DNA of 39,320 bases from assembly GCA_023954745.1 (NCBI GenBank), contig JAGSHC010000028.1, positions 1-39,320 on the forward strand. Reading direction: 5' to 3'. The DNA is from Deltaproteobacteria bacterium (lineage in GTDB: Bacteria > Myxococcota_A > UBA796 > UBA9615). Made by a program: the position numbers and the translations under genes. The notes below the pieces were generated by a model. The model saw nothing but the letters and a program-made list of their open reading frames with translations, was not told the DNA's origin and did not search any database. Shown piece by piece: positions 14,452 to 31,583 of this stretch. How positions within the stretch are numbered: position 1 is the stretch's first letter; every line of letters begins with the position of its first letter.

Positions 14452-15120
14452 ATGTCCGACTACTCCCGCTCTGCGGAGGGCTTCCGCTGTGACGAGTGCA
14501 GCGAAGAGATGGCGATGCCTCTCTTCTGCGACCACTGCGGCGCGAACTATCCGGAGAGACGCGCCATGGGCCCCTTTGCGGTGCTGGGCGTGAACGCCGA
14601 GTTCGGCCTCGACCCGGACCTGCTCGAGCGCCGTGAGCTGGCTCTCGCCAAGCGCCTCCACCCCGACAGCTGGCAGAGCCGCGGCGAGCGCAAGCACAAG
14701 CAGGCGCAGCTGGCCTGGTCCGCGGTGAACGAGGCCCTCGCGAAGACCCAGGACCCCTTCGTGCGCGCCGAGACGCTGCTTCAGGGCACCGACGAGGCCA
14801 CCTCTGGCGCGCTGAGCGACACCCCGTCCGTCCCCCAGACCTTTCTCCTGGAGCAGCTCGAGCTTCAGGAGGAGATCGAGGACGGCGTGGACGACGGGCG
14901 CCGCAAGGTCCTGAACAAAGAGGTACGCCGGGCCCTCAAGGAGCTGCAGCGGCAGCTCGCCGGACACTTCGAAATCATCGAGGCCACGCAAGACGCCGGC
15001 TCTGCAGCCGGGGATGCGCGCATCGCCGCGCTCCGAGCCAGTTGGACCGTCGTGCACATGAGCCGGTACTGGAAGAACGCCCAGCGCGCGCTGCGATCCG
15101 GCGCGGCGCAGGCGAGGTAG
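14452..15120 (+). CDS. hscB: Co-chaperone HscB with an N-terminal zinc finger
   Basis: HscB is a J-domain protein that brings IscU to HscA and stimulates its ATPase. The 222-aa protein is longer than E. coli HscB (about 171 aa). The extra N-terminus carries two CxxC pairs (C13/C16 and C26/C29), a probable zinc finger like that of eukaryotic HSCB. The J-domain follows ([15 protein letters not shown], then RLHPDSW with HPD at 70-72). The C-terminal helical bundle ([13 protein letters not shown], then [13 protein letters not shown]) binds IscU. It starts 18 nt after iscA and ends 4 nt before hscA. Confidence 0.93.
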
Positions 15121-15124
15121 CAGC

Positions 15125-17041
15125 ATGCAGATCCAGCTCAAGGTCAAGGGACAGTCCGAGGACGTCGTCGTCGGCATCGACCTCGGCACCACCAACTCCC
15201 TCGTCGCTCGCGTCGTCGACGGCGAGCCCAAGGTGGTCGCCGACCGCCACGGCCGCGCCATCACGCCATCGGTCATCTCCATCGACGAAGAGGGCCACGC
15301 CGTCGTCGGTGACGAGGCGAAGACGCGGGCGCTGCTCAACCCCGCCGGCACCCTGACCAGCATCAAGCGCTTCATGGGGCGCGGTGTGGACGACGTCACC
15401 GACGTCGCGCATCTGCCCTACAAGATCGTGCGGGCAGACCTCGGCGAGCAGGCCGCCATCCTCGTGCACGGGAAGAAGTACCTGCCGCAGGAGCTGTCGG
15501 CGATGGTGCTCACCGAGGCGAAGAAGCGCGCTGAGCGAGCCCAGAACCTGCGCATCCGACGGGCCGTCATCACCGTGCCCGCCTACTTCGACGACGCCCA
15601 GCGTCAGGCCACGCGCGACGCCGGGCGCATCGCGGGCATCGACGTGCTGCGCATCATCAACGAGCCCACGGCGGCAGCGCTCGCCTACGGGCTCGACAAG
15701 GGCAAGCGCGGCACCGTGCTCGTGTACGACCTGGGCGGCGGCACGTTCGACGTCTCGCTGCTCAAGCTCACCGACGGCGTCTTCAAGGTCATCGCCACCA
15801 CCGGCAACACCCGCCTGGGCGGCGACGACTTCGACAACGCCGTGACCGACGTGCTCGTCTCGAACCTGAGCGAGGAGCAGCTCGACGCAGTGCGGGGGAA
15901 CCCTCGCGCGCTGAGCGCCCTCAAGACGGCGTCGGAGCAGGCCAAGATCGCCCTGTCGAGCGAGGACGAGACCACCGTGGCTATCGACTTCGCGGACCTG
16001 GGTGTGGCCATCGAGCGCACCGTGACCCGCGCCGACTACGAGGTGGCCATCGCGCCGCTGCTCGACAAGACCATGGCGGCCGTGGACTTCGTGCTCGAAG
16101 AGGCCGACCTCGACCCCGAGGACGTGGACGAGGTCGTGTGTGTCGGGGGCTCCACCCGCACGCCGGCGGTGCGCGCCCGGCTCGAGAAGGAGTTCGAGAA
16201 GCCGCCACACACGGAGCTGGATCCGGACCAGGTCGTCGCCCTCGGCGCGGCGCTCCAGGCAGAGATGCTTTCCGGCGATGGTGACAACGACCAGGTGCTG
16301 CTGGACGTCACCCCCCTGTCCCTCGGCATCGAGACCTACGGCGGTGGCGTCACCAAGCTCATCTGGCGCAACTCGCCAGTGCCCATTCGCGCCACGGAGG
16401 GCTTCACCACGCAGGTCGACGACCAGACGGCGGTGATGATCCACGTGCTCCAGGGCGAGCGCGAGATGGCGAAGGACCTTCGCTCGCTGGGTCGGTTCAC
16501 GCTGCGGGGCATCCCCGCCATGTCCGCCGGAATGCCGCGGGTGTTGGTGGAGTACTTCATCGACGCCAACGGCATCCTCAAGGTCACGGCCAAGGAGATG
16601 ACGTCGGGGACCAAGGCGTCCATCGAGGTGAAGCCCACCTACGGCCTGACCGACGAGCAGGTCGAGGACATGATCCTCGACTCCATCGAGCACGCCGAAG
16701 AGGACATCGAGGCGCACATCCTCGCGGACAAGAAGGCCGAAGCCGAGTCCATGCTGCGCTACTCGCGCAAGGCCCTGGGCGACCACGGTGAGCTGGTGCC
16801 CGACGCGATTCGCACGGGCGTCGAGATCGCCATCGCCGCCCTCGAAGAGGTACTGCAGGGGGACGACAAGGAGGCCATCGAGGCCGCCTCGGACGTGCTC
16901 AACGAGAACACTGCGCCCATCGCGAGCGCGATGATGGACGAGGTCTTGCGGGTGACCGTGCACGGCCGCACCATCGGCGACGTGCTCGGCAGCCAGGGTG
17001 CTCGCCGCAAGGCCTCCGACATCGATTTGAGCAAGGAGTAG
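15125..17041 (+). CDS. hscA: Hsp70-type chaperone HscA
   Basis: HscA is a specialised Hsp70 that, with HscB, binds the LPPVK motif of IscU and drives cluster transfer with ATP. The 638-aa protein shows the Hsp70 signatures in order: [15 protein letters not shown] (ATP binding, about residue 16), [14 protein letters not shown] near 200, [14 protein letters not shown] near 340, then the substrate-binding beta domain ([17 protein letters not shown]) and an alpha-helical lid. It contains [15 protein letters not shown]. Its place between hscB and fdx supports HscA rather than DnaK. GAGGTAGCAG upstream of ATG 15125 serves as the ribosome site. Confidence 0.96.
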
Positions 17042-17067
17042 GCGCCAGGCGCCTGCCAGGAGAAGCA

Positions 17068-17367
17068 ATGCCCAAGGTCCGGTTCATGCCCATGGACATC
17101 ACCGTCGAGACGGAGACGGGTGCGTCCATCCTCCAGACGGCGCTGGCCAACGACATCGAGCTCGAGCACGCCTGCGGCGGCTTCTGCGCGTGCACCACCT
17201 GCCACGTCATCGTGGAGGAGGGCGAGCCCACGCTGAGCGAGATGGACTTCGACGAGGAGGACAAGCTCGACGAGGTGGAGCTGGTGACCTTGCGGAGTCG
17301 CTTGGGATGCCAGGCGAAGATGGGCACGAGCGACATCGTCGTGACGGTTCCGCCGAAGCCGTACTAG
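17068..17367 (+). CDS. fdx: ISC-type [2Fe-2S] ferredoxin
   Basis: This 99-aa adrenodoxin-type ferredoxin supplies electrons for cluster assembly. The ligands are C36, C42 and C45 (ACGGFCACTTC) and C81 (RLGCQA), the C-x5-C-x2-C plus distant Cys pattern of Isc ferredoxins; C40 is an extra conserved-type cysteine in the loop. It is acidic (LSEMDFDEEDKLDEVE), as expected for the IscS/HscA-binding face. The ATG at 17068 has CAGGAGAAG just before it. It lies 26 nt after hscA and is part of the operon. Confidence 0.96.
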   Translation: MPKVRFMPMDITVETETGASILQTALANDIELEHACGGFCACTTCHVIVEEGEPTLSEMDFDEEDKLDEVELVTLRSRLGCQAKMGTSDIVVTVPPKPY

Positions 17368-17421
17368 GCGGCGGGGTACCGTCGAGTGTGTTCGCCGAGA
17401 ACTGAGCGCAAGGAGACCGAG

Positions 17422-17637
17422 ATGGAGAAGCTCACCTGGGGCGACGCCGGCGAGATCGGCTACCAGTTGTACGAGGCCCACGAGGACACCCACCCCCTGA
17501 GCGTCACCTTCGTGCAGATGCACAAGTGGGTGCTGGAGCTTCCGGGCTTCGAGGGCGACCCGAAGGCCAGCGCCGAGAAGACCCTCGAGGCCATTCAGAT
17601 GGCCTGGTACGACGAGTGGAAGCTCGACAACGAGTAA
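17422..17637 (+). CDS. iscX: IscX, Fe-S assembly modulator
   Basis: IscX is a small acidic protein that binds IscS and iron and tunes cluster synthesis. The 71-aa protein follows the family pattern: LTWGDAGEIGYQLYEAHED at the N-terminus, VTFVQMHKWVLELPGF in the middle and LEAIQMAWYDEWKLD at the end. The ATG at 17422 follows AAGGAGACCGAG; a longer frame from 17386 has no ribosome site. It closes the isc operon, the standard position. A 20-bp palindrome lies about 60 bp downstream. Confidence 0.95.
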   Translation: MEKLTWGDAGEIGYQLYEAHEDTHPLSVTFVQMHKWVLELPGFEGDPKASAEKTLEAIQMAWYDEWKLDNE

Positions 17638-19085: not shown

Positions 19086-19104
19086 CTACGACACAATGTC
19101 GTAG
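19086..19104. promoter_or_regulatory. BlaI-type operator 1
   Basis: CTACGACA and TGTCGTAG flank a 3-bp centre (CAA), a perfect 8-bp-arm dyad of 19 bp just upstream of the blaI-like promoter. BlaI/MecI/CopY repressors bind dyads with ACA/TGT cores, which fits. Confidence 0.72.
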
Positions 19105-19111
19105 GTTGATC

Positions 19112-19140
19112 TTGATCCCTACGACAATGCGTCGTAGCTT
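19112..19140 (+). promoter_or_regulatory. blaI-like gene promoter with BlaI-type operator 2
   Basis: TTGATC (19112-19117) and TAGCTT (19135-19140) with a 17-bp spacer form a likely promoter, 7 nt before ATG 19148. The second dyad, CTACGAC-N5-GTCGTAG (19119-19137), fills the spacer and touches the -10, so repressor binding should block RNA polymerase: negative autoregulation. Confidence 0.6.
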
Positions 19141-19147
19141 CTCGCTC

Positions 19148-19513
19148 ATGGCCCGAACCCCTTCGCTCGAACGACGCGTGCTCGATGTTCTCTGGCGCGG
19201 CGACTGTCTCTCCGTCCGCGATGTTCACGCCATCGTCGGTGCTGACCTCGCGTACACCACCATCGCCACCGTGCTCGACCGCCTGCACGCCAAGGGGCAG
19301 GTCACTCGCCACAAGCACGGGGTCGCGTGGGTCTACAAGGCCGCGCGCACTCGTGATGAGGAGATCGCGAGCGAAGTGGCGAAGATGATGCAGCGAGCCG
19401 ACGGCGCCGCCGAGCCGCTCCTCGTCGCCTTCCTCGACCAGGTCGAGGCCGCCGACCCCTCCGCCCTCGACCGCCTCGAGGCCCTCCTCAACGAGCGAAA
19501 GGCTCGACGTTGA
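19148..19513 (+). CDS. BlaI/MecI/CopY-family transcriptional repressor
   Basis: This 121-aa protein is a winged-helix repressor: LERRVLDVLWRGDCLSVRDVH (helices 1-2), YTTIATVLDRLHAKGQVTR (recognition helix and wing start) and HGVAWVYKA (wing). The C-terminal helices (KMMQRADGAAEPLLVAFLDQ) serve for dimerisation. In this family, a membrane M56 protease of the BlaR1/MecR1 type leads to cleavage of the repressor. The partner gene overlaps by TTGA (19510-19513). An in-frame ATG at 19127 lies inside operator 2 and a TTG at 19106 is further up; neither has a ribosome site, so ATG 19148 at the predicted transcription start is preferred. It probably controls its own operon and the metal efflux genes downstream. 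Confidence 0.9.
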   Translation: MARTPSLERRVLDVLWRGDCLSVRDVHAIVGADLAYTTIATVLDRLHAKGQVTRHKHGVAWVYKAARTRDEEIASEVAKMMQRADGAAEPLLVAFLDQVEAADPSALDRLEALLNERKARR

Positions 19514-20442
19514 GCGCCCTCGGCTTCCTCACCATCCTCGCCGCCCTCTCCCTGGGGGCGGCCTTCCTCTGCTCGGCGTTGCTGTACCCCATCTGGGCGG
19601 CGGCCACCCTCCGACGGCCGGCCCTCGCGCGCGGATCCGTCGTCGTCGCCGCCATCCCCTGGATCGTGGGCGTCGGCGTCCTCCTCGCCGCGCTCCTTCC
19701 CGGGGATCCCCACCTCGGGCAGCTTCTCAGCTGCCACTGCCACGGCTCGATGCCCGGCTGGATCCACCTCTGCCCGGTCCACCCCGGGAACGCGCTGGCC
19801 CTCCTGCCTTTTGCAGCCGCGACCCTCGCCGTCCTCCTCCCCGGCCGCTTCGGCGCCGCCCGCGCCGCCCTCGCCCAGCCCCTGGGCCGCGGCGGAGAAC
19901 CTGTCGTCACCAGGCTGCCCTCGCCCACCGCCGTGCTCGTGGGCTGGCTCCGCCCCACCCTCGCCATCGACTCGCGGCTATGGGACGTGCTGAGCGCCAG
20001 CGAGCGTCGCGCGCTACTGGCCCACGAGGATGCCCACCTCCGTCGCCACGACCCCTTCGTTCTTCACCTCCTGCGCGTCCTCGGGATCCTCGGGCCGCAG
20101 CGCGCCACCTCCCGCCTGATCCGCAGCTGGCTCTGCCGCGCCGAGACGTCGGCCGACGCCGTGGCTGCCCGGCAACTGGGAGACCCCCTGCTCCTCGCCA
20201 CGGCTCTGCTCCGCTGCGCACGCCTCCGAGTCGACACCCCGCCGCGCGCCCTCGCCTGGACCGGGGGCGACCTCGCAGACCGCGTGCAGCGACTCATGGA
20301 TGCCCCTCCAGCCGACATCGCCGCGACCCCCGACGCGACCTTCGCAGACGGAGCGGCGCTCCTCCTCCTCGGCTTGCTCGTCGCTGCGTCCTCGCCGTGG
20401 GTCCACCACGAGCTCGAGCACCTGCTCAACCTCTCCTTTTGA
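19510..20442 (+). CDS. Minimal BlaR1-like M56 membrane metalloprotease with a Cys/His sensor loop
   Basis: This 310-aa protein has a BlaR1-like layout: membrane helices at about 5-27, 43-63 and 93-112, a cytoplasmic zinc-protease part with HEDAH (H172, E173, H176) and a final helix at about 280-294. It lacks the roughly 250-aa penicillin-binding sensor domain of BlaR1. Instead, the loop between helices 2 and 3, extracellular in BlaR1, carries a metal-binding-like cluster (C75, H76, C77, H78, H86, C88, H91), and the short tail after the last helix reads WVHHELEH. I infer that it senses a periplasmic metal such as copper, silver, zinc or cadmium and then inactivates the adjacent repressor. It starts with TTG 19510, coupled to the repressor stop, and is followed 8 nt later by the efflux genes. 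Confidence 0.85.
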   Translation: MSALGFLTILAALSLGAAFLCSALLYPIWAAATLRRPALARGSVVVAAIPWIVGVGVLLAALLPGDPHLGQLLSCHCHGSMPGWIHLCPVHPGNALALLPFAAATLAVLLPGRFGAARAALAQPLGRGGEPVVTRLPSPTAVLVGWLRPTLAIDSRLWDVLSASERRALLAHEDAHLRRHDPFVLHLLRVLGILGPQRATSRLIRSWLCRAETSADAVAARQLGDPLLLATALLRCARLRVDTPPRALAWTGGDLADRVQRLMDAPPADIAATPDATFADGAALLLLGLLVAASSPWVHHELEHLLNLSF

Positions 20443-20450
20443 TCACGTCG

Positions 20451-21749
20451 ATGTCTGCTCGCCCAAGCCTTCGTGCGCCCAGACCTACGACATTGCGTAG
20501 TACTGCTCTGGCCCTCGCGCTCGCCTCGACGGTCCTCGCGGCCCCCGCCCCTGCAGAAGAGCCACCCCACCAGCCCCCCACTGCGGAGGCCGATCTCGTC
20601 GCTCGCTATCTCGCCTCGCCCGTCATGCGGGCCCGCATTGCGGCCGCCAACGCTCGCACCACTGCCGCCGGCATCGCCGACGTCGACGTCACCAACCCCG
20701 AGATCGCCTACCGCCACGAGGACGCCCGAGGAACCGCGGGAGCACGCACCGACGCAGTCGTGGGGACCGTGACCGTGGACCTGGGCTTCGTCGCCGCTGG
20801 AGAGCGCCGCGCAGCCAACCAACGCGGAGAGGCAGGCCCGCTCTGGGCGCGCGCCGCGGTCGTCGACGCCGTCTGCGGTCTCCGGCGCGAGGCCGGGGAC
20901 TCCGTCGCCGCGGACTCTGAGCTGGCCGTGCGCCGTCGAGCCCAGGGCCGCCTCGAGACCCTCGGCGACACCCTCGTTCAGCTCGCCGCCGCGGGGGAGG
21001 CATCGGGCTACGACCGCGACCGCACCTTGCTCGCCGTCGCCGCCCACCGCGTCGACCTCGCCGTCGCCGAAGGAGAGGCCCAGGCGCTTCGCTCCACCCT
21101 CGCCGCCCGGGTCAGCCAGGACGTCGAGTCCCTCGAGCTCTCGTCTCCCTCGGAGCTCCCCGCCCCCGACCAGCTCGTCGAGACTGCCATCGAATCACAT
21201 CCTGAGCTCCGGGCTCTCCTCCTCGAACAGAAGGCCGCGCGGACCGCCGAAGCCGCCGCCCGACGAAAGGTCGCCCCGGACCTCACGCTGAGTGGCGGTG
21301 CGCGCTTCGATGCCCCCCCCGACCGCGGTCCCGCCACCCCCGGCTTCGAGGTGGGGGCGGCCGTCGAGCTCCCCATCTTCGACACCCACAAGGCCGAGGC
21401 GTTTCGAGCCGAAGCGTCGCTCCAGGAGATCGGGGCCACCCTGGCGAGACGACAAGCCGAGGTCGGCGCCGAGGTCCGCAGCGCCTGGACCCGCCTCGCA
21501 TCTGCGCGACGCCTCGGAGGACTCGAGGCAGACCCCGCTGCCGTGTGGGACGCCGCCCAGGACCGGTTTGTGGGTGGCGAGGCATCCATCGAGGAGCTCC
21601 TGCAGACAGCGCGCGACGTGGAAGCCGCCCAGCTCAGCGAGCTTCGGGCGCAGACACTCCGTCGCACTGCATACATCGACCTCTGGTGCGCCGCCGGGAC
21701 CCACCCCGAAGCCCCCATCTCCGCTGCCATCGAGGAGGCTCTGCGATGA
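20451..21749 (+). CDS. TolC-like outer membrane factor of a metal RND efflux system (CusC/CzcC type)
   Basis: This 432-aa protein should form the trimeric outer-membrane channel of the efflux complex. It has a signal peptide (RSTALALALASTVLAAPAPA) and long helical stretches with coiled-coil Ala/Arg/Glu content typical of the family, in two repeats (about 45-235 and 240-420). Motifs include DVDVTNPEIAYRHED near the N-terminus and DLTLSGGARFDAPP with FEVGAAVELPIFD in the second half, matching OMF beta-strand and turn segments. ATG 20451 gives a 14-residue extra basic N-terminus; a TTG at 20493, inside operator 3, would give a cleaner signal peptide (RSTALALAL). The stop overlaps the adaptor start (ATGA, 21746-21749). 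Confidence 0.85.
   Translation: MSARPSLRAPRPTTLRSTALALALASTVLAAPAPAEEPPHQPPTAEADLVARYLASPVMRARIAAANARTTAAGIADVDVTNPEIAYRHEDARGTAGARTDAVVGTVTVDLGFVAAGERRAANQRGEAGPLWARAAVVDAVCGLRREAGDSVAADSELAVRRRAQGRLETLGDTLVQLAAAGEASGYDRDRTLLAVAAHRVDLAVAEGEAQALRSTLAARVSQDVESLELSSPSELPAPDQLVETAIESHPELRALLLEQKAARTAEAAARRKVAPDLTLSGGARFDAPPDRGPATPGFEVGAAVELPIFDTHKAEAFRAEASLQEIGATLARRQAEVGAEVRSAWTRLASARRLGGLEADPAAVWDAAQDRFVGGEASIEELLQTARDVEAAQLSELRAQTLRRTAYIDLWCAAGTHPEAPISAAIEEALR
20485..20503. promoter_or_regulatory. Degenerate BlaI-type operator 3 at the efflux genes
   Basis: CTACGAC-N5-GTAGTAC repeats the operator layout with a perfect left arm and 5 of 7 matches in the right arm. It lies 43 bp after the M56 stop, at the beginning of the outer-membrane-factor gene, over codons 12-18 if ATG 20451 is the start. 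It suggests that the same repressor controls an internal efflux promoter. Confidence 0.5.
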
Positions 21750-23287
21750 GTCGCTGCTTTGCGATCACCTTGTTTCTCCTCGCCGGCTGCGCGCCCGGCC
21801 CCGCCCCTCACGGCCACAGCCACGGCGGCGCCGACCACCACGGCGGAGGCGCCGACCACCACGCCGAAGACGAAGGCGAGAGCATCGCCATCACCCGATG
21901 GACTGACAGCCACGAGCTGTTCGTCGAGTTGGACGCCCCCGTCGTGGGAACCGCGTTCGCGTACCACGCCCACGTCACTCGCCTCGCTGACAACCACGCA
22001 GCCACCGAGGGCAGCCTCACCCTCCGCTTCGAGCAAGACGGCTTCGCGGTGGAGTCTCACACGGACGAGGCCGTCGCCCGACCGGGAATCTTCGCGCAAG
22101 AAGCGGCGGCCCCCAGCAAGGCGGGCACTTACGACCTCGTGGTCACCTACTCGAACGGCCCTGAGCGGGCCGAATGGGCCGGCGGAACGGTGGTCGTCGG
22201 GGCGACGGGTCCCGAGCCCCACGAGGCAGATGACGAGGGCGAGATCGGGTTCCTCAAGGAGGGCCAGTGGCAGGTGCCCTTTCGTGTGATGCTCGCGGCC
22301 GAGGTCGAGCTCGCCCCCACGGCGAAGATCCCCGCCATGGCCCGCCCGGCTCCCTCGACCACCGCGGTCGTTGCCGCGCCGACGGATGGCTTGCTCGCGT
22401 GGTCGAGCTCGCTGCCCGTCGTGGGCCGCAGGGTCACCGCCGGGGAGCGACTGGCGACGCTGATCCCGGCCGGCGCCTCAGAACACTGGACACGCCTCCA
22501 GGCAGACGTCGCCACCGCCCGAATTGACCTCGACCTGGCCCACAAAGAGCTGACACGGGTCCGCGACCTCACCACCCGCGAGCTCCTCCCGGCCCGTCGC
22601 CTCGCCGAGGCCGAAGCCGCGGTGGAGCGGGCCACCGCGCAAGTCGATGCCAGCGAGCGTCGCGCCTCGGCGCTGAGCAGCGGCAGCACCGGCGCGGTGA
22701 GCGTGAAGGCACCCGCCAGCGGCATCATCGTGTCGGTGGGGGCCGGCCACGGCGAAGACGTCCACGCCGGCGCCCCTCTCATCGGGGTGTCGTCGTCCTC
22801 GGCCCTCCTCCTGGAAGGACACGTTCACGAGCGATTGGAGGACGAGTTGGCTCCGGGGACGGGCCTCTACGCCCTCCGCGGAGGTTGGGACGAGCCCCGC
22901 GATCTCGCCGAGGCAGGCGGGAGGCTGCTCACTGAGCGACTCATCTACGACAAGGACGGCCTCTCCGCCCCCATCTCCGTCCTCGTGGAGTCGGACGTCG
23001 GGCTCGCGCCGGGGGACCTCGTCGAGCTCCAGATCGGGGTCGGGGCTCCCTCCTCCGCCCTGGCGGTCCCTCGCAGCGCCATCGTCGAGGTCTCCGGTCA
23101 GACCGTGGTCTTCGTCCAGAAGACCGGCGAGTCGTTCACGCGCCGCCGCGTCGTCCTCGGCCGCAGCGATGCCCGGTTCGTCGAGGTCCTCTCCGGCGTC
23201 TCCGCCGGCGACATGGTGGTGGTCGAAGGCGGCTTCGACGTGCATGTCGCCTCTCTGAGCGACGGCCTCGAATCACACAGGCACTGA
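21746..23287 (+). CDS. His-rich periplasmic adaptor (membrane fusion protein) of a metal RND pump
   Basis: This 513-aa lipoprotein (MSRCFAITLFLLAGC; lipobox LAGC) starts ATGA-coupled to the channel gene. Its N-terminus is rich in His (HGHSHGG, DHHGGGADHH), a likely metal-capture segment. Residues about 48-165 form an extra beta domain (ITRWTDSHELFVELDAP through GTYDLVVTY) seen in some Czc/Cus adaptors. Then come the barrel-sandwich half (VAAPTDGLLAWSSSLPVVGRRV), a helical hairpin (residues 245-310, rich in Ala/Glu/Arg), the second half (VKAPASGIIVSVGAGHGEDV), the beta-barrel (VLVESDVGLAPGDLVELQIG) and a membrane-proximal domain (VVFVQKTGESFTRRRVVLG). It links pump and channel and may deliver metal to the pump. 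Confidence 0.88.
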   Translation: MSRCFAITLFLLAGCAPGPAPHGHSHGGADHHGGGADHHAEDEGESIAITRWTDSHELFVELDAPVVGTAFAYHAHVTRLADNHAATEGSLTLRFEQDGFAVESHTDEAVARPGIFAQEAAAPSKAGTYDLVVTYSNGPERAEWAGGTVVVGATGPEPHEADDEGEIGFLKEGQWQVPFRVMLAAEVELAPTAKIPAMARPAPSTTAVVAAPTDGLLAWSSSLPVVGRRVTAGERLATLIPAGASEHWTRLQADVATARIDLDLAHKELTRVRDLTTRELLPARRLAEAEAAVERATAQVDASERRASALSSGSTGAVSVKAPASGIIVSVGAGHGEDVHAGAPLIGVSSSSALLLEGHVHERLEDELAPGTGLYALRGGWDEPRDLAEAGGRLLTERLIYDKDGLSAPISVLVESDVGLAPGDLVELQIGVGAPSSALAVPRSAIVEVSGQTVVFVQKTGESFTRRRVVLGRSDARFVEVLSGVSAGDMVVVEGGFDVHVASLSDGLESHRH

Positions 23288-23288
23288 C

Positions 23289-26200
23289 ATGTGGAACGCC
23301 GTCATTCGCTGGTCCCTCGACAATCGGGTGGCCGTTCTGGGTCTCGCCACATTGCTGCTCGTCATGGGCACATGGACGGCGATGGACCTGCCGGTGGACG
23401 TCCTCCCAGACGTGAACGCCCCCACCGTCACCGTGCTCACCGAGACCCACGGGATGGCGCCCGAGGAGGGGGAGCTGCTCGTCACCGTGCCCATCGAGAC
23501 GGCGCTCAATGGAGTCCCGGGGCTGCGGCGGCTGCGCTCGTCGTCGGGCATCGGCATCTCCATCGTCTGGGCCGAGTTCGAGTGGGACACCGACCCCTAC
23601 CTGGCGCGCCAGTTGGTGGCCGAGCGACTCCAGATCGCTCAAGGCTCGCTTCCCGCCCATGTGCCACGACCCTCTCTGGCTCCCATGTCCTCGATCATGG
23701 GGGAGATCCTCTTCCTCGGAGTCTCCGGGGACGCACACCCAATGGACATCCGGGACTTCGCCGACTGGGAGCTCCGGCGCCGGCTGCTCGGTATCTCGGG
23801 CGTCGCTCAGGTCACGCCCATCGGCGGCGAGCTCCGCCAGGTCCAGATCGTCCTCGACCCGTCCGCCATGGAGCGGGCGTCCATCGGACACCACCAGATC
23901 CTGGCGGCCCTCCAGGGCGCAGCCGAGAATGCCCCTGGCGGGTTCATCACCTCGGGCTACAGCGAGTACCTGGTTCGCGGCCTGGGCCGGGCACAGACGC
24001 TGGACGAGCTGGGGTTGATCGCCGTGGGACGCGCAGGCGACGCGCCCGTCTTCCTCCATCAGCTCGCTGAGATCCGCATGGGAGCAGCCCTCTCCCGCGG
24101 GGTGGGTTCCGTCAACGCAGAGCCCGCGGTCGTCCTCGCGGTCACCAAGCAGCCCGAAGCCAACACCCTCGACCTCACCTCCCGCATCGACACTGCGCTC
24201 GATGAGGTGGAGCGGTCCATGCCTGCCGGGATGACCCTGCATCGCGACGGTTTCCGGCAATCCCGCTTCATCGAGACCGCTGTGACCAACGTCTCGCGCC
24301 ACCTGGGCGAGTCGGCGGTGCTCATCATCGTCTTGCTCACGCTGTTCCTCGCGAACTGGCGCACGACGGTCATCTCCCTGGTCGCGCTGCCTCTCTCTCT
24401 CCTCGCCGGCGCCCTCACCCTCGCCGCGCTGGGGACCGGATTCAACACCATGACCCTCGGGGGTCTGGCCATCGCCATCGGCGCGTTGGTGGACGACGCG
24501 ATCATCGACGTGGAGAACGTGTACCGGCGCCTCCGACTACGAGCTGGGCTGCCGGAGGAGGAGAGGCCACCCCTGCTCGACACGGTGTACGAGGCCTCGG
24601 TCGAGATCCGCGGCTCCATCGTCTACGCCACCGCCATCATCGTCGTGGTCTTCGCGCCGCTCTTCTTCTTCAGCGGCCTCGAAGGTCGACTGCTCCAGCC
24701 CCTGGGCACCGCCTACGTCGCGAGCCTCGTCGCCTCCCTCGTCGTCGCCGTGACGGTGACTCCAGCCCTGTGCAGCGTGCTCCTCCGCTCGGTCCCACCG
24801 GCCTCCGAAGAGTCGGATTCACCCCTGGTTCGCCTCCTCAAGAAGGTCTACAGCCCGACCCTTCGCTTCGCCCTCGGCTCTCCCCGCGCGGTCCTGGCCG
24901 TGTCCCTCATCGGTGCCGTCGCGGCGGGAGTCACCCTCGGCAACTTCGGCCGAAGCTTCCTGCCCACCTTCAACGAGGGTGCCTTCACGGTCGCCGCGGC
25001 CACGGCGCCCGGCACGCCCCTCGCGCAATCGGATGCCATGGTGGCCCGCCTCGAACGTGCGGTGGTGGCCCTCCCCATCGTGCAGTCCGTCACGAGACGC
25101 ACAGGCCGAGCCGAGAAGGACGAGCACGCCCAGGACGTCCAGTTCAGTGAGCTGGAGGTGACCATCCGCCCCGGGGTCGACCGAGCCGACGCCGCGGAGG
25201 CCCTACGAAAGGCTTCGGCCGTGCCCGGCGTGGTGGTCGCGGTGGGGCAACCCATCGGGCACCGCATCGAGCACATGCTGTCGGGGGTGAAGACATCGCT
25301 GGCCTTGAAGGTCTTCGGTGAAGACCTGGGAGACCTTCGCCGCGCGGCTGCCGAGGTGGAGGCCGCCATCTCTGGCATCGATGGACTCGTGGACCTGTCG
25401 GTGGAGCAGCAACAGGAGGTCCCCCAGGTGGTGGTGCGGCCTCGCTACTCGCCGTTGGCGTTGCTCGGGCTCACCCCCGGCGAGGTAGCCGAGTGGGTGG
25501 AGACGGCGCTGGTGGGCCAGGTGGTCGGCTCCTGGTGGCGCGACGGTCGAGCCCACGACATGGTCGTGCGCTACCCCGACGAGGTCCGCGGCAGCATCGA
25601 GGCCCTCGCATCGGCCCCCATCGACGCAGACGGCGAGCGCTTCGTCTCCCTGTCCCAGGTGGCGACCGTGCAGCGCACCCTTGGGCCGAACCTCATCCAG
25701 CGCGAGAATGCCAAGCGCCGCATCGTGGTGATGGCCAACGTGGAAGGCCGCGACATCCGCGGAGTCGTCGACGAGATTCGAGCCGCGCTGCCCACCGATC
25801 TGCCCGAAGGTACCTACGTCGTCGTCGGTGGCCAGGCGGAGAGCGAGGCGAAGGCCACCCGCACCATCGTGACGCTCTCGGCGGTGGCCATCGTGGCCAT
25901 GCTGGGACTGCTCTGGGTCGCCCTCGGCTCCGGGCGCGACGCCATCCTCGTGATGAGCAACCTCCCGCTGGCGCTCATCGGTGGAGTCCTCGTGGTGACC
26001 GCCGGCGGTGGCGTGCTGTCCGTAGCATCGCTCGTGGGCTTCATCACGCTGTTCGGCATCGCCACGCGAAACGGGATCCTGTTGGTCACCCACTACCACC
26101 ACCTCATCCAGAAGGAGGGGGCCTCCCTCGCCGAGGCCGTGGAGCGAGGCAGCGAGGAGCGACTCGTGCCGGTGCTGATGACCGCCCTGGGGACGGCCCT

Positions 26201-26372
26201 TGCCCTCACCCCCATCGCCCTCGCCGCGGGGGAGCCCGGGAACGAGATCCAGGCACCCATGGCCGCCGTCATTCTGGGCGGCCTTGCCTCGTCGACCCTG
26301 CTCGTCCTGCTCGTCCTGCCTGTCCTCTACATCCGCTACGGTCGGCCCAACTCCTCGGAGACGCCCTCATGA
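23289..26372 (+). CDS. Heavy-metal RND efflux pump (CusA/CzcA family)
   Basis: This 1027-aa inner-membrane proton antiporter has 12 expected helices: an N-terminal helix (RVAVLGLATLLLVMGTW), a periplasmic pore domain with DLPVDVLPDVNAP, helices 2-6 from about 340, a second periplasmic domain, and helices 8-12 at the end (AILVMSNLPLALIGGVLVV and LFGIATRNGILLVTHY). The helix-4 motif AIGALVDDAIIDVEN near residue 395-409 is the proton-relay signature of the heavy-metal class, closest in style to CusA (AxGxxVDxAI). Metal specificity (Cu/Ag or Zn/Cd/Co) cannot be read with certainty. It starts 1 nt after the adaptor stop and overlaps the next gene by ATGA. Confidence 0.92.
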   Translation: MWNAVIRWSLDNRVAVLGLATLLLVMGTWTAMDLPVDVLPDVNAPTVTVLTETHGMAPEEGELLVTVPIETALNGVPGLRRLRSSSGIGISIVWAEFEWDTDPYLARQLVAERLQIAQGSLPAHVPRPSLAPMSSIMGEILFLGVSGDAHPMDIRDFADWELRRRLLGISGVAQVTPIGGELRQVQIVLDPSAMERASIGHHQILAALQGAAENAPGGFITSGYSEYLVRGLGRAQTLDELGLIAVGRAGDAPVFLHQLAEIRMGAALSRGVGSVNAEPAVVLAVTKQPEANTLDLTSRIDTALDEVERSMPAGMTLHRDGFRQSRFIETAVTNVSRHLGESAVLIIVLLTLFLANWRTTVISLVALPLSLLAGALTLAALGTGFNTMTLGGLAIAIGALVDDAIIDVENVYRRLRLRAGLPEEERPPLLDTVYEASVEIRGSIVYATAIIVVVFAPLFFFSGLEGRLLQPLGTAYVASLVASLVVAVTVTPALCSVLLRSVPPASEESDSPLVRLLKKVYSPTLRFALGSPRAVLAVSLIGAVAAGVTLGNFGRSFLPTFNEGAFTVAAATAPGTPLAQSDAMVARLERAVVALPIVQSVTRRTGRAEKDEHAQDVQFSELEVTIRPGVDRADAAEALRKASAVPGVVVAVGQPIGHRIEHMLSGVKTSLALKVFGEDLGDLRRAAAEVEAAISGIDGLVDLSVEQQQEVPQVVVRPRYSPLALLGLTPGEVAEWVETALVGQVVGSWWRDGRAHDMVVRYPDEVRGSIEALASAPIDADGERFVSLSQVATVQRTLGPNLIQRENAKRRIVVMANVEGRDIRGVVDEIRAALPTDLPEGTYVVVGGQAESEAKATRTIVTLSAVAIVAMLGLLWVALGSGRDAILVMSNLPLALIGGVLVVTAGGGVLSVASLVGFITLFGIATRNGILLVTHYHHLIQKEGASLAEAVERGSEERLVPVLMTALGTALALTPIALAAGEPGNEIQAPMAAVILGGLASSTLLVLLVLPVLYIRYGRPNSSETPS

Positions 26373-26962
26373 GACTCAGCTTCGCCCTCACCGCCCTTCT
26401 GCTCACCGCCGGCTGTGGAGCCGACTCCGGACATGGCCACGAGCACGGAGACCACGGGCACGGAGACCATCACGGGTCGGAGGCCGCCGAGGCGCCAGCC
26501 ACTCCCGCCGAGAAGGCAGCAGAGGCGAAGAGCGCTCCCGCCGAAAAGGCAGCAGAGGCGAAGAGCGCTCCCCTCGCTGGGACCCAGACGGCGGTCGATG
26601 TTCCTCTGGGCGCCTGGACTGGGCGCCTGGTCGCCTCGACGACCGGCCTCGACCTCTCCATCTCGAACAGCGACGGCACCCCGATGATCCCTACCGGAGA
26701 GGTGCGAGTCGTGCTGACTGGCGTCGGAGAGGAAGCCCAGCGGATCGTCCTCCTCCCGGACGGAGCGAGTTGGAAGGCCCCTGCGAGCGTCACCGGGGCG
26801 GCCGGCTACACCGCCGTTGTCAGCATGGAGGTGGGCGGTCACACGGAGTCGGGCCGCGCAACCTGGGGGGACGTGCCACCTCCCAAGACCGCTCCTGCGA
26901 AGGATGACCATGCGCATGCAAAGGATGACCATGCGCATGGGGACGCAGGCCACAACCACTAG
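26369..26962 (+). CDS. His-rich lipoprotein of the efflux operon
   Basis: This 197-aa protein starts at ATG 26369, overlapping the pump stop. It begins MRLSFALTALLLTAGC (lipobox TAGC). His clusters lie at both ends: GHGHEHGDHGHGDHHG after the lipid cysteine and DDHAHAKDDHAHGDAGHNH at the C-terminus. In between are a tandem repeat (EKAAEAKSAP twice, residues about 50-70) and a small beta domain (80-175; TGRLVASTTGLDLSISN, GYTAVVSMEVGG) resembling YtkA/FixH-like domains and the N-terminal domain of the adaptor. It is probably a periplasmic metal-binding chaperone or buffer that loads the adaptor. Confidence 0.8.
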   Translation: MRLSFALTALLLTAGCGADSGHGHEHGDHGHGDHHGSEAAEAPATPAEKAAEAKSAPAEKAAEAKSAPLAGTQTAVDVPLGAWTGRLVASTTGLDLSISNSDGTPMIPTGEVRVVLTGVGEEAQRIVLLPDGASWKAPASVTGAAGYTAVVSMEVGGHTESGRATWGDVPPPKTAPAKDDHAHAKDDHAHGDAGHNH

Positions 26963-27084
26963 AACGCTGCTGCCGCGAGGGCGTCGAGCACCTGTGGAGG
27001 GCCAGAGCCCGCGGTTCAGCCAGCTCCGCCGTCGTCGCCAGGGCCGCCGCAAGGGCCGCGGATTCCTGACGCCGACGATCTTCG

Positions 27085-27306
27085 GCCACCCAGGCGGCAT
27101 ATAGCGGGGGACTTGAGCCTCAAGTACCCCCTCATGGTCCGGAGCCCGCCGATCTTCAGCCACCCAGGCGGCATATAGCGGGGGACTTGAGCCTCAAGTA
27201 CCCCCTCATGGTCCGGACGGCGACGATGCGCAGCCACCCAGGCGGCATATAGCGGGGGACTTGAGCCTCAAGTCCCCACCCATGTTCCGGAGCCCGGCGA
27301 TCCGCG
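27085..27306. repeat. Three 74-bp tandem repeats with a conserved hairpin
   Basis: Three units with period 74 begin GCCACCCAGGCGGCATATAG at 27085, 27159 and 27233; a partial copy precedes the first. Each holds an inverted repeat around ACTTGA-GCC-TCAAGT flanked by G and C runs (27106-27131, 27180-27205, 27255-27277). Copies 1 and 2 have one bulged A, while copy 3 forms a perfect 10-bp stem. They fill most of the 372-bp gap (26963-27334) between two convergent genes and may act as terminators, mRNA 3'-end stabilisers or REP-like elements. No convincing gene was seen in the gap. Confidence 0.85.

Positions 27307-29204: not shown

Positions 29205-31583
<2,379 letters not shown>

Follow-up and report, generated by a model that had tools for sequence, protein, structure and literature searches.

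A candidate metal-responsive BlaI/M56 proteolytic switch encoded in one operon with a heavy-metal RND efflux system

The window analysed here is a 39,320-nt stretch of DNA (contig JAGSHC010000028.1, assembly GCA_023954745.1) from a Deltaproteobacteria bacterium of the Myxococcota_A, and it contains an operon in which a BlaI-type repressor and an M56 membrane protease precede a tripartite heavy-metal efflux (HME) pump of the resistance-nodulation-division (RND) superfamily. Six genes lie on the forward strand in the order blaI–M56–cusC–cusB–cusA–His-rich lipoprotein, with junctions that are 4-nt overlaps or gaps of no more than 8 nt. The blaI gene (19148–19513) encodes a 121-amino acid (aa) repressor of the BlaI/MecI/CopY family (Penicillinase_R domain, 75.6 bits, 5.3e-21, against a cut-off of 22.6), and overlaps by 4 nt the gene for a 310-aa M56 membrane metalloprotease (19510–20442) that has no C-terminal sensor domain. 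After a gap of 8 nt follows cusC (20451–21749), for a TolC/CusC-type outer membrane channel (OEP, 58 bits, 1.4e-15); then, with a 4-nt overlap, cusB (21746–23287), for a periplasmic adaptor with a lipobox and a His-rich N-terminus (TIGR01730, 105 bits; TIGR00999, 92.7 bits, which is below the cut-off of that family); and, 1 nt further on, cusA (23289–26372), the product of which scores above the TIGR00914 cut-off (710.6 against 701.45 bits) and is thus a member of the CusA/CzcA-family HME-RND pumps. The last gene (26369–26962; 4-nt overlap with cusA) encodes a His-rich lipoprotein (lipobox LTAGC) that had no family match in the family scans; its homologs sit 3' of cusA in three other loci (L056, L057, and L061), and it is probably a periplasmic metal-binding accessory. 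A first-pass annotation of this DNA had described a six-gene, single-strand cluster with these overlaps and gaps, and our coordinates agree; its word "fused" is apt for a single cluster and wrong for a protein fusion, of which there is none.

Three 17-bp palindromes are predicted operators, two of them at the promoter of blaI. Operator 1 (19087–19103, TACGACACAATGTCGTA) is an upstream copy that was not seen in close orthologs; operator 2 (19120–19136, TACGACAATGCGTCGTA) ends 11 nt 5' of the blaI ATG, and a copy at this place is kept in orthologs; and operator 3 (20486–20502, TACGACATTGCGTAGTA) lies 44 nt past the M56 stop, over the start region of cusC, and is likely to be an internal promoter/operator. 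The pattern TACGACANNNNGTMGTA has exact matches in the 7.1-Mb genome only at these three sites, and the two one-mismatch sites elsewhere are not above the level of a control pattern. Alternative blaI starts (ATG 19127 and TTG 19106) overlap operators; ATG 19148 is taken as the start because the orthologs begin at M-A-R-x-P, about 10 nt past the operator. The signal peptide of CusC could also begin at TTG 20493, within operator 3. A consensus sigma-70 promoter was looked for and none was found. In close orthologs a TACGAC/TACTAC palindrome stands about 10 nt 5' of blaI, with a matching copy after M56 (three mismatches or fewer), although the weaker second copy of locus L058 was seen only when the two regions were compared for a shared palindrome. 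That comparison set the blaI-promoter region of each of 85 loci against its own M56/cusC junction without fixing the sequence, and recovered a shared palindrome (at least 13 of 14 arm positions matching) in 18 of the 85, as against 0 of 798 control pairs; some lineages use a different word, ACCGAT-N5-ATCGGT-like, at both places. The three like operators of the first-pass annotation are therefore present as described and unique in the genome, and their pairing recurs in orthologs. The simplest reading, on sequence grounds, is that the repressor would bind both its own promoter and an internal promoter of the pump genes.

The gene order is conserved well beyond the window. With the M56 protein as query, 71 genomes of the same class yielded 11 more close homologs (46–53% identity), all with blaI directly upstream and cusC next; the closest relatives bear the names Deltaproteobacteria, Proteobacteria, and Myxococcota, and are mostly metagenome-assembled genomes. 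Of 379 genomes of the phylum searched with a profile, 119 had matches. One hundred loci were retrieved, and 99 besides the window hold a match to our M56 model; blaI is upstream of 99 of the 101 M56 genes, and genes of an RND system directly follow the blaI–M56 pair at 85 loci, in 74 of the 379 genomes. Furthermore, an identical five-gene order occurs on conjugative plasmids of Shewanella baltica and Pseudomonas aeruginosa and on a Salmonella IncC plasmid; plasmids from other Shewanella, Pseudoalteromonas, and Glaciecola carry related M56 genes. These plasmid copies were found by searching with BlaI and then with the Shewanella M56; a plasmid search with the window's own M56 gave no matches, and no near copy of the Shewanella operon was found in E. 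coli genomes. Conservation of the gene order in relatives, which the first-pass annotation had named as a check on its proposal, thus holds in the phylum and on plasmids of another phylum. On plasmids of Meiothermus and Rhodococcus (L193 and L194), BlaI and an M48/M56-type protease are encoded near a heavy-metal P-type ATPase and ArsR, with DUF305 in addition at the Rhodococcus locus; these proteases do not have the loop and tail signature described next.

The M56 protein scores 24.2 bits with the Pfam M56 model, under the cut-off of 31, and carries HEDAH and a downstream ExxAD; the HExxH motif, the downstream Glu, and a BlaR1-like membrane-protease fold, the last of these modelled, mark it as an M56 peptidase. 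In an AlphaFold2 model (mean predicted local distance difference test [pLDDT] score 87.9), long N-terminal helices are followed by a protease-like middle part and two C-terminal helices. The top four structural matches are BlaR1 entries (8exs: Z 12.3, 5.2 angstrom over 216 residues), with the proviso that helical models may score well by chance and that sequence identity is 8%. The class-D beta-lactamase-like C-terminal sensor domain of BlaR1 is absent, as the chain stops about 17 aa past the fourth transmembrane (TM) helix of the model. Two clusters of potential metal ligands are present instead: a Cys/His cluster in the TM2–TM3 loop (19732–19782; residues 75–91, CHCHGSMPGWIHLCPVH) and HHELEH in the C-terminal tail after TM4 (20404–20421; residues 299–304). 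Both would face the periplasm, to judge by the BlaR1 analogy and by the arginine-rich TM1–TM2 loop. H76, H86, C88, H91, H299, H300, and E303, together with protease-site residues, are invariant in 20 proteins (homologs 27–52% identical to the window's).

Scored as Cys/His density, with no fixed motif, a loop cluster together with an HHxxE tail cluster is found in 91 of 93 pump-linked M56 proteins and in none of 40 controls, which are the top Pfam-M56 matches of the same phylum and one of which lies about 6 kb or less from an RND gene. The p-value of this contrast (5e-32) is not to be taken at face value, as the two sets were sampled differently and the features were picked after looking; the robust point is that loop Cys/His counts do not overlap (4–11 in pump-linked proteins against 0–3 in controls). 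The stretch from HExxH to the end of the protein has a median of 139 aa in the pump-linked set and 308 aa in the controls. Seven genes in the set of 93 are not confirmed to be followed directly by an RND gene: one is at a contig end, one has an RND gene upstream, one has RND genes on the other strand, and four are beside a TonB-dependent receptor. The last four (L127, L149, L132, and L134) are signature-bearing blaI–M56 pairs with no RND genes and with the receptor gene adjoining M56, as called from reading frames guided by GC content at third codon positions; perhaps the same sensor is used there for metal uptake. The source genome of the window encodes two further BlaI–M56 pairs (G000:C331 and G000:C373); the C331 protease, with its longer C-terminal part, does not have the signature.

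The metal handled by the pump is constrained only in part by known motifs. The Cu(I)/Ag(I) ligands of E. coli CusA are M573, M623, and M672 (PMC8092243), positions that are A/F/M in the window pump, and the full Met triad is absent from the listed residue combinations, which cover 65 of the 66 aligned pumps. It is therefore unlikely, judging from these residues, that the window pump handles Cu(I)/Ag(I) by means of the CusA triad, and the label "Cus" is unsupported, because the triad is not kept. HME1 and HME2 pumps carry DFG-DGA-VEN in TM4 (PMC3637150); TM4 of the window pump reads AIGALVDDAIIDVEN, which does not have the DFGx3DGAx3VEN motif of the CzcA/CnrA type. In a sister lineage of the operon, a C..DH...C loop goes with DFG-DGA pumps, and some genomes (e.g., G141, G090, and G077) carry both operon types. 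Loop and pump types co-vary (loop A with AxG pumps, 44 of 44; loops B and C with DFG pumps, 12 of 13; Fisher 1.8e-11). We rejected this co-variation as proof of metal matching, as the pump tree, in which the wrong one of the two L182 pumps was used, is essentially a single deep split and the association amounts to about one event.

Gene order and its conservation, the unique paired operators, the BlaR1-like modelled fold, the lack of a sensor domain, and the confinement of the signature to pump-linked M56 proteins together make it probable that the locus encodes a BlaI/M56 proteolytic switch, triggered by metal, through which an HME-RND efflux operon regulates itself. From these features we infer the periplasmic location and metal binding of the signature, the activation of the protease by that binding, and BlaI as its substrate. 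When there is no excess metal, BlaI dimers would occupy the operators at the blaI promoter and at the M56/cusC junction, thereby holding down the regulator and pump genes. Excess periplasmic metal would bind the M56 site formed by C75, H76, C77, H86, C88, and H91 of the loop and H299, H300, E303, and H304 of the tail, a site that would stand in for the beta-lactam-acylated sensor of BlaR1. The membrane helices would relay the signal to the zinc-protease domain in the cytosol, and the activated protease would cleave BlaI, such that the operon, including pump and protease, is derepressed until the metal is cleared. An LLVAFLD stretch in the C-terminal part of BlaI is near-invariant among close orthologs (59–71% identical). 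Staphylococcal BlaI is cleaved at a comparable Asn-Phe bond, and by this analogy the stretch may serve as a lead to the cleavage site, and no more. The metal-responsive proteolysis circuit proposed in the first-pass annotation gains support from the conservation, from the absent beta-lactam domain, from the pump-linked Cys/His and HHxxE signature, and from a BlaI without CxC motifs.

Several observations weigh against this proposal. No clear shared palindrome was found in most of the distant loci, in the windows scanned. Because the profile used to gather the pump-linked set itself includes the signature, that set is biased towards having it, and the features compared were chosen after the set had been seen. 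Confidence in the model is among its lowest in the loop (pLDDT 66–71). In the plasmid copies from Gammaproteobacteria the tail is retained, as HHxxE or HSxxE; the loop of the Shewanella copy, however, has histidines only, and the ligand set is therefore not universal. Finally, signature-bearing M56 proteins beside TonB-dependent receptors would control uptake, a role less easily squared with simple derepression by metal.

Three other explanations were weighed. It is unlikely, though conceivable, that the role of the loop and tail residues is structural, as a zinc or disulfide site, and that the protease is activated by membrane stress, a pump ligand, or the metal of its catalytic site. Cys/His clusters often hold structural zinc, the Shewanella loop has no cysteines, and how the related protease PetP senses copper is described as future work in PMC7896320; however, M56 proteins of the same phylum and peptidase family that have no pump neighbours are without these residues, and because none of the 40 controls has them, the M56 fold does not need them. 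It is less probable still that BlaI binds the metal itself, in the manner of CopY, with M56 serving turnover or some other signal. CopY belongs to the same superfamily and regulates copper export, and TIGR02698 (CopY) is the best NCBIfam match of BlaI; yet the score of 39.8 bits is far under the cut-off of 121.95, and BlaI has a single, non-conserved Cys and no CxC metal motif, so that metal sensing within BlaI is unlikely, and the invariant Cys, His, and Glu residues of M56 would be left unexplained. A BlaR1-like beta-lactam or cell-wall sensor that incidentally drives an RND pump can be set aside as very improbable: both BlaI and M56 belong to the families of beta-lactam circuits and the best structural match is BlaR1, but M56 has no penicillin-binding-protein-like sensor domain, the pump is of the CusA/CzcA family rather than of a multidrug subfamily, and the Cys/His signature occupies the place of the BlaR1 extracellular loop and sensor.

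More broadly, it is an even question whether these proteases form a wide family of one-piece metal receptors, in which an M56 protein with a periplasmic loop/C-tail site gates its own cytosolic protease, and which, spread by conjugative plasmids, would add another way of controlling HME-RND pumps to two-component systems and cytosolic sensors. Such a family would have at least two metal-tuned loop types, CHC/DHC...HLCxxH with AxG-VDDA pumps and C..DH...C with DFG-DGA pumps, sometimes both in one genome. HME-RND pumps are a principal means of metal resistance in Gram-negative bacteria, and textbooks describe two-component systems as their regulators. If the metal-triggered switch is real, its presence in about one-fifth of the sampled phylum genomes and on plasmids of Shewanella, Pseudomonas, and Salmonella would amount to an overlooked control mode. 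The system also gives a handle on how metal switches on M56 proteases such as PetP, as a 310-aa protein without other sensor domains offers a handful of conserved residues that can be mutated singly.

Just 3' of the operon (27072–27302) lie three tandem copies of a 74-bp unit with a near-perfect palindrome (GGGGACTTGAGCCTCAAGTMCCCC); several other contigs of the genome carry similar copies, often paired, and the unit is a dispersed palindromic repeat. At 29205–31583, 2.2 kb past the efflux operon, lies the gene for a protein of 792 aa that contains seven or more Cu-binding_MopE-type (PF11617) repeats. Upstream, 14452–17637 holds part of an Fe-S assembly cluster (a protein with an HscB C-terminal domain, an HscA-like Hsp70, a 2Fe-2S ferredoxin, and an IscX-like protein).

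A metal-activated BlaI/M56 pair is already known, and this prior art was missing from the first-pass annotation: in cyanobacterial PetRP, according to two papers, copper activates an M56 protease, which removes a BlaI-family regulator (PMC13421787, PMC7896320). BlaR-family homologs are also mentioned in a review, as proteins of unknown role in heterotrophic marine bacteria (PMC10141476). Full-text literature searches found no paper on BlaI–M56 with an HME-RND operon, which is weak evidence of absence; the pump-linked form would be the new part. Like the window's system, BlaR1–BlaI and MecR1–MecI of Staphylococcus combine a BlaI repressor with an M56 protease, a TM-plus-protease fold, and palindromic operators, but the window M56 has a Cys/His loop and HHxxE tail in the absence of a class-D-like sensor, and the output is a metal pump. 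CopY (copYZBA of Firmicutes) shares the repressor superfamily and the control of metal export; unlike CopY, which senses copper itself, the window BlaI lacks CxC and has a partner protease, and the pump is RND rather than a P-type ATPase. CusCBA–CusRS and CzcCBA–CzcRS are likewise tripartite HME-RND exporters with periplasmic sensing, as would be the case here, but are controlled by two-component kinases, whereas control in the window would be by a proteolytic switch, and the window pump differs in having neither the CusA Met triad nor the CzcA DFG motif. PetRP of Synechocystis is likewise a two-gene pair, of BlaI-type PetR and M56/BlaR-type PetP, in which metal-activated PetP degrades PetR; it differs in controlling petE and petJ (electron carriers) rather than a pump, and in that PetR both represses and activates. 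By this analogy, the window's system would fit the PetRP precedent, with metal export as its output and a visible candidate sensor site.

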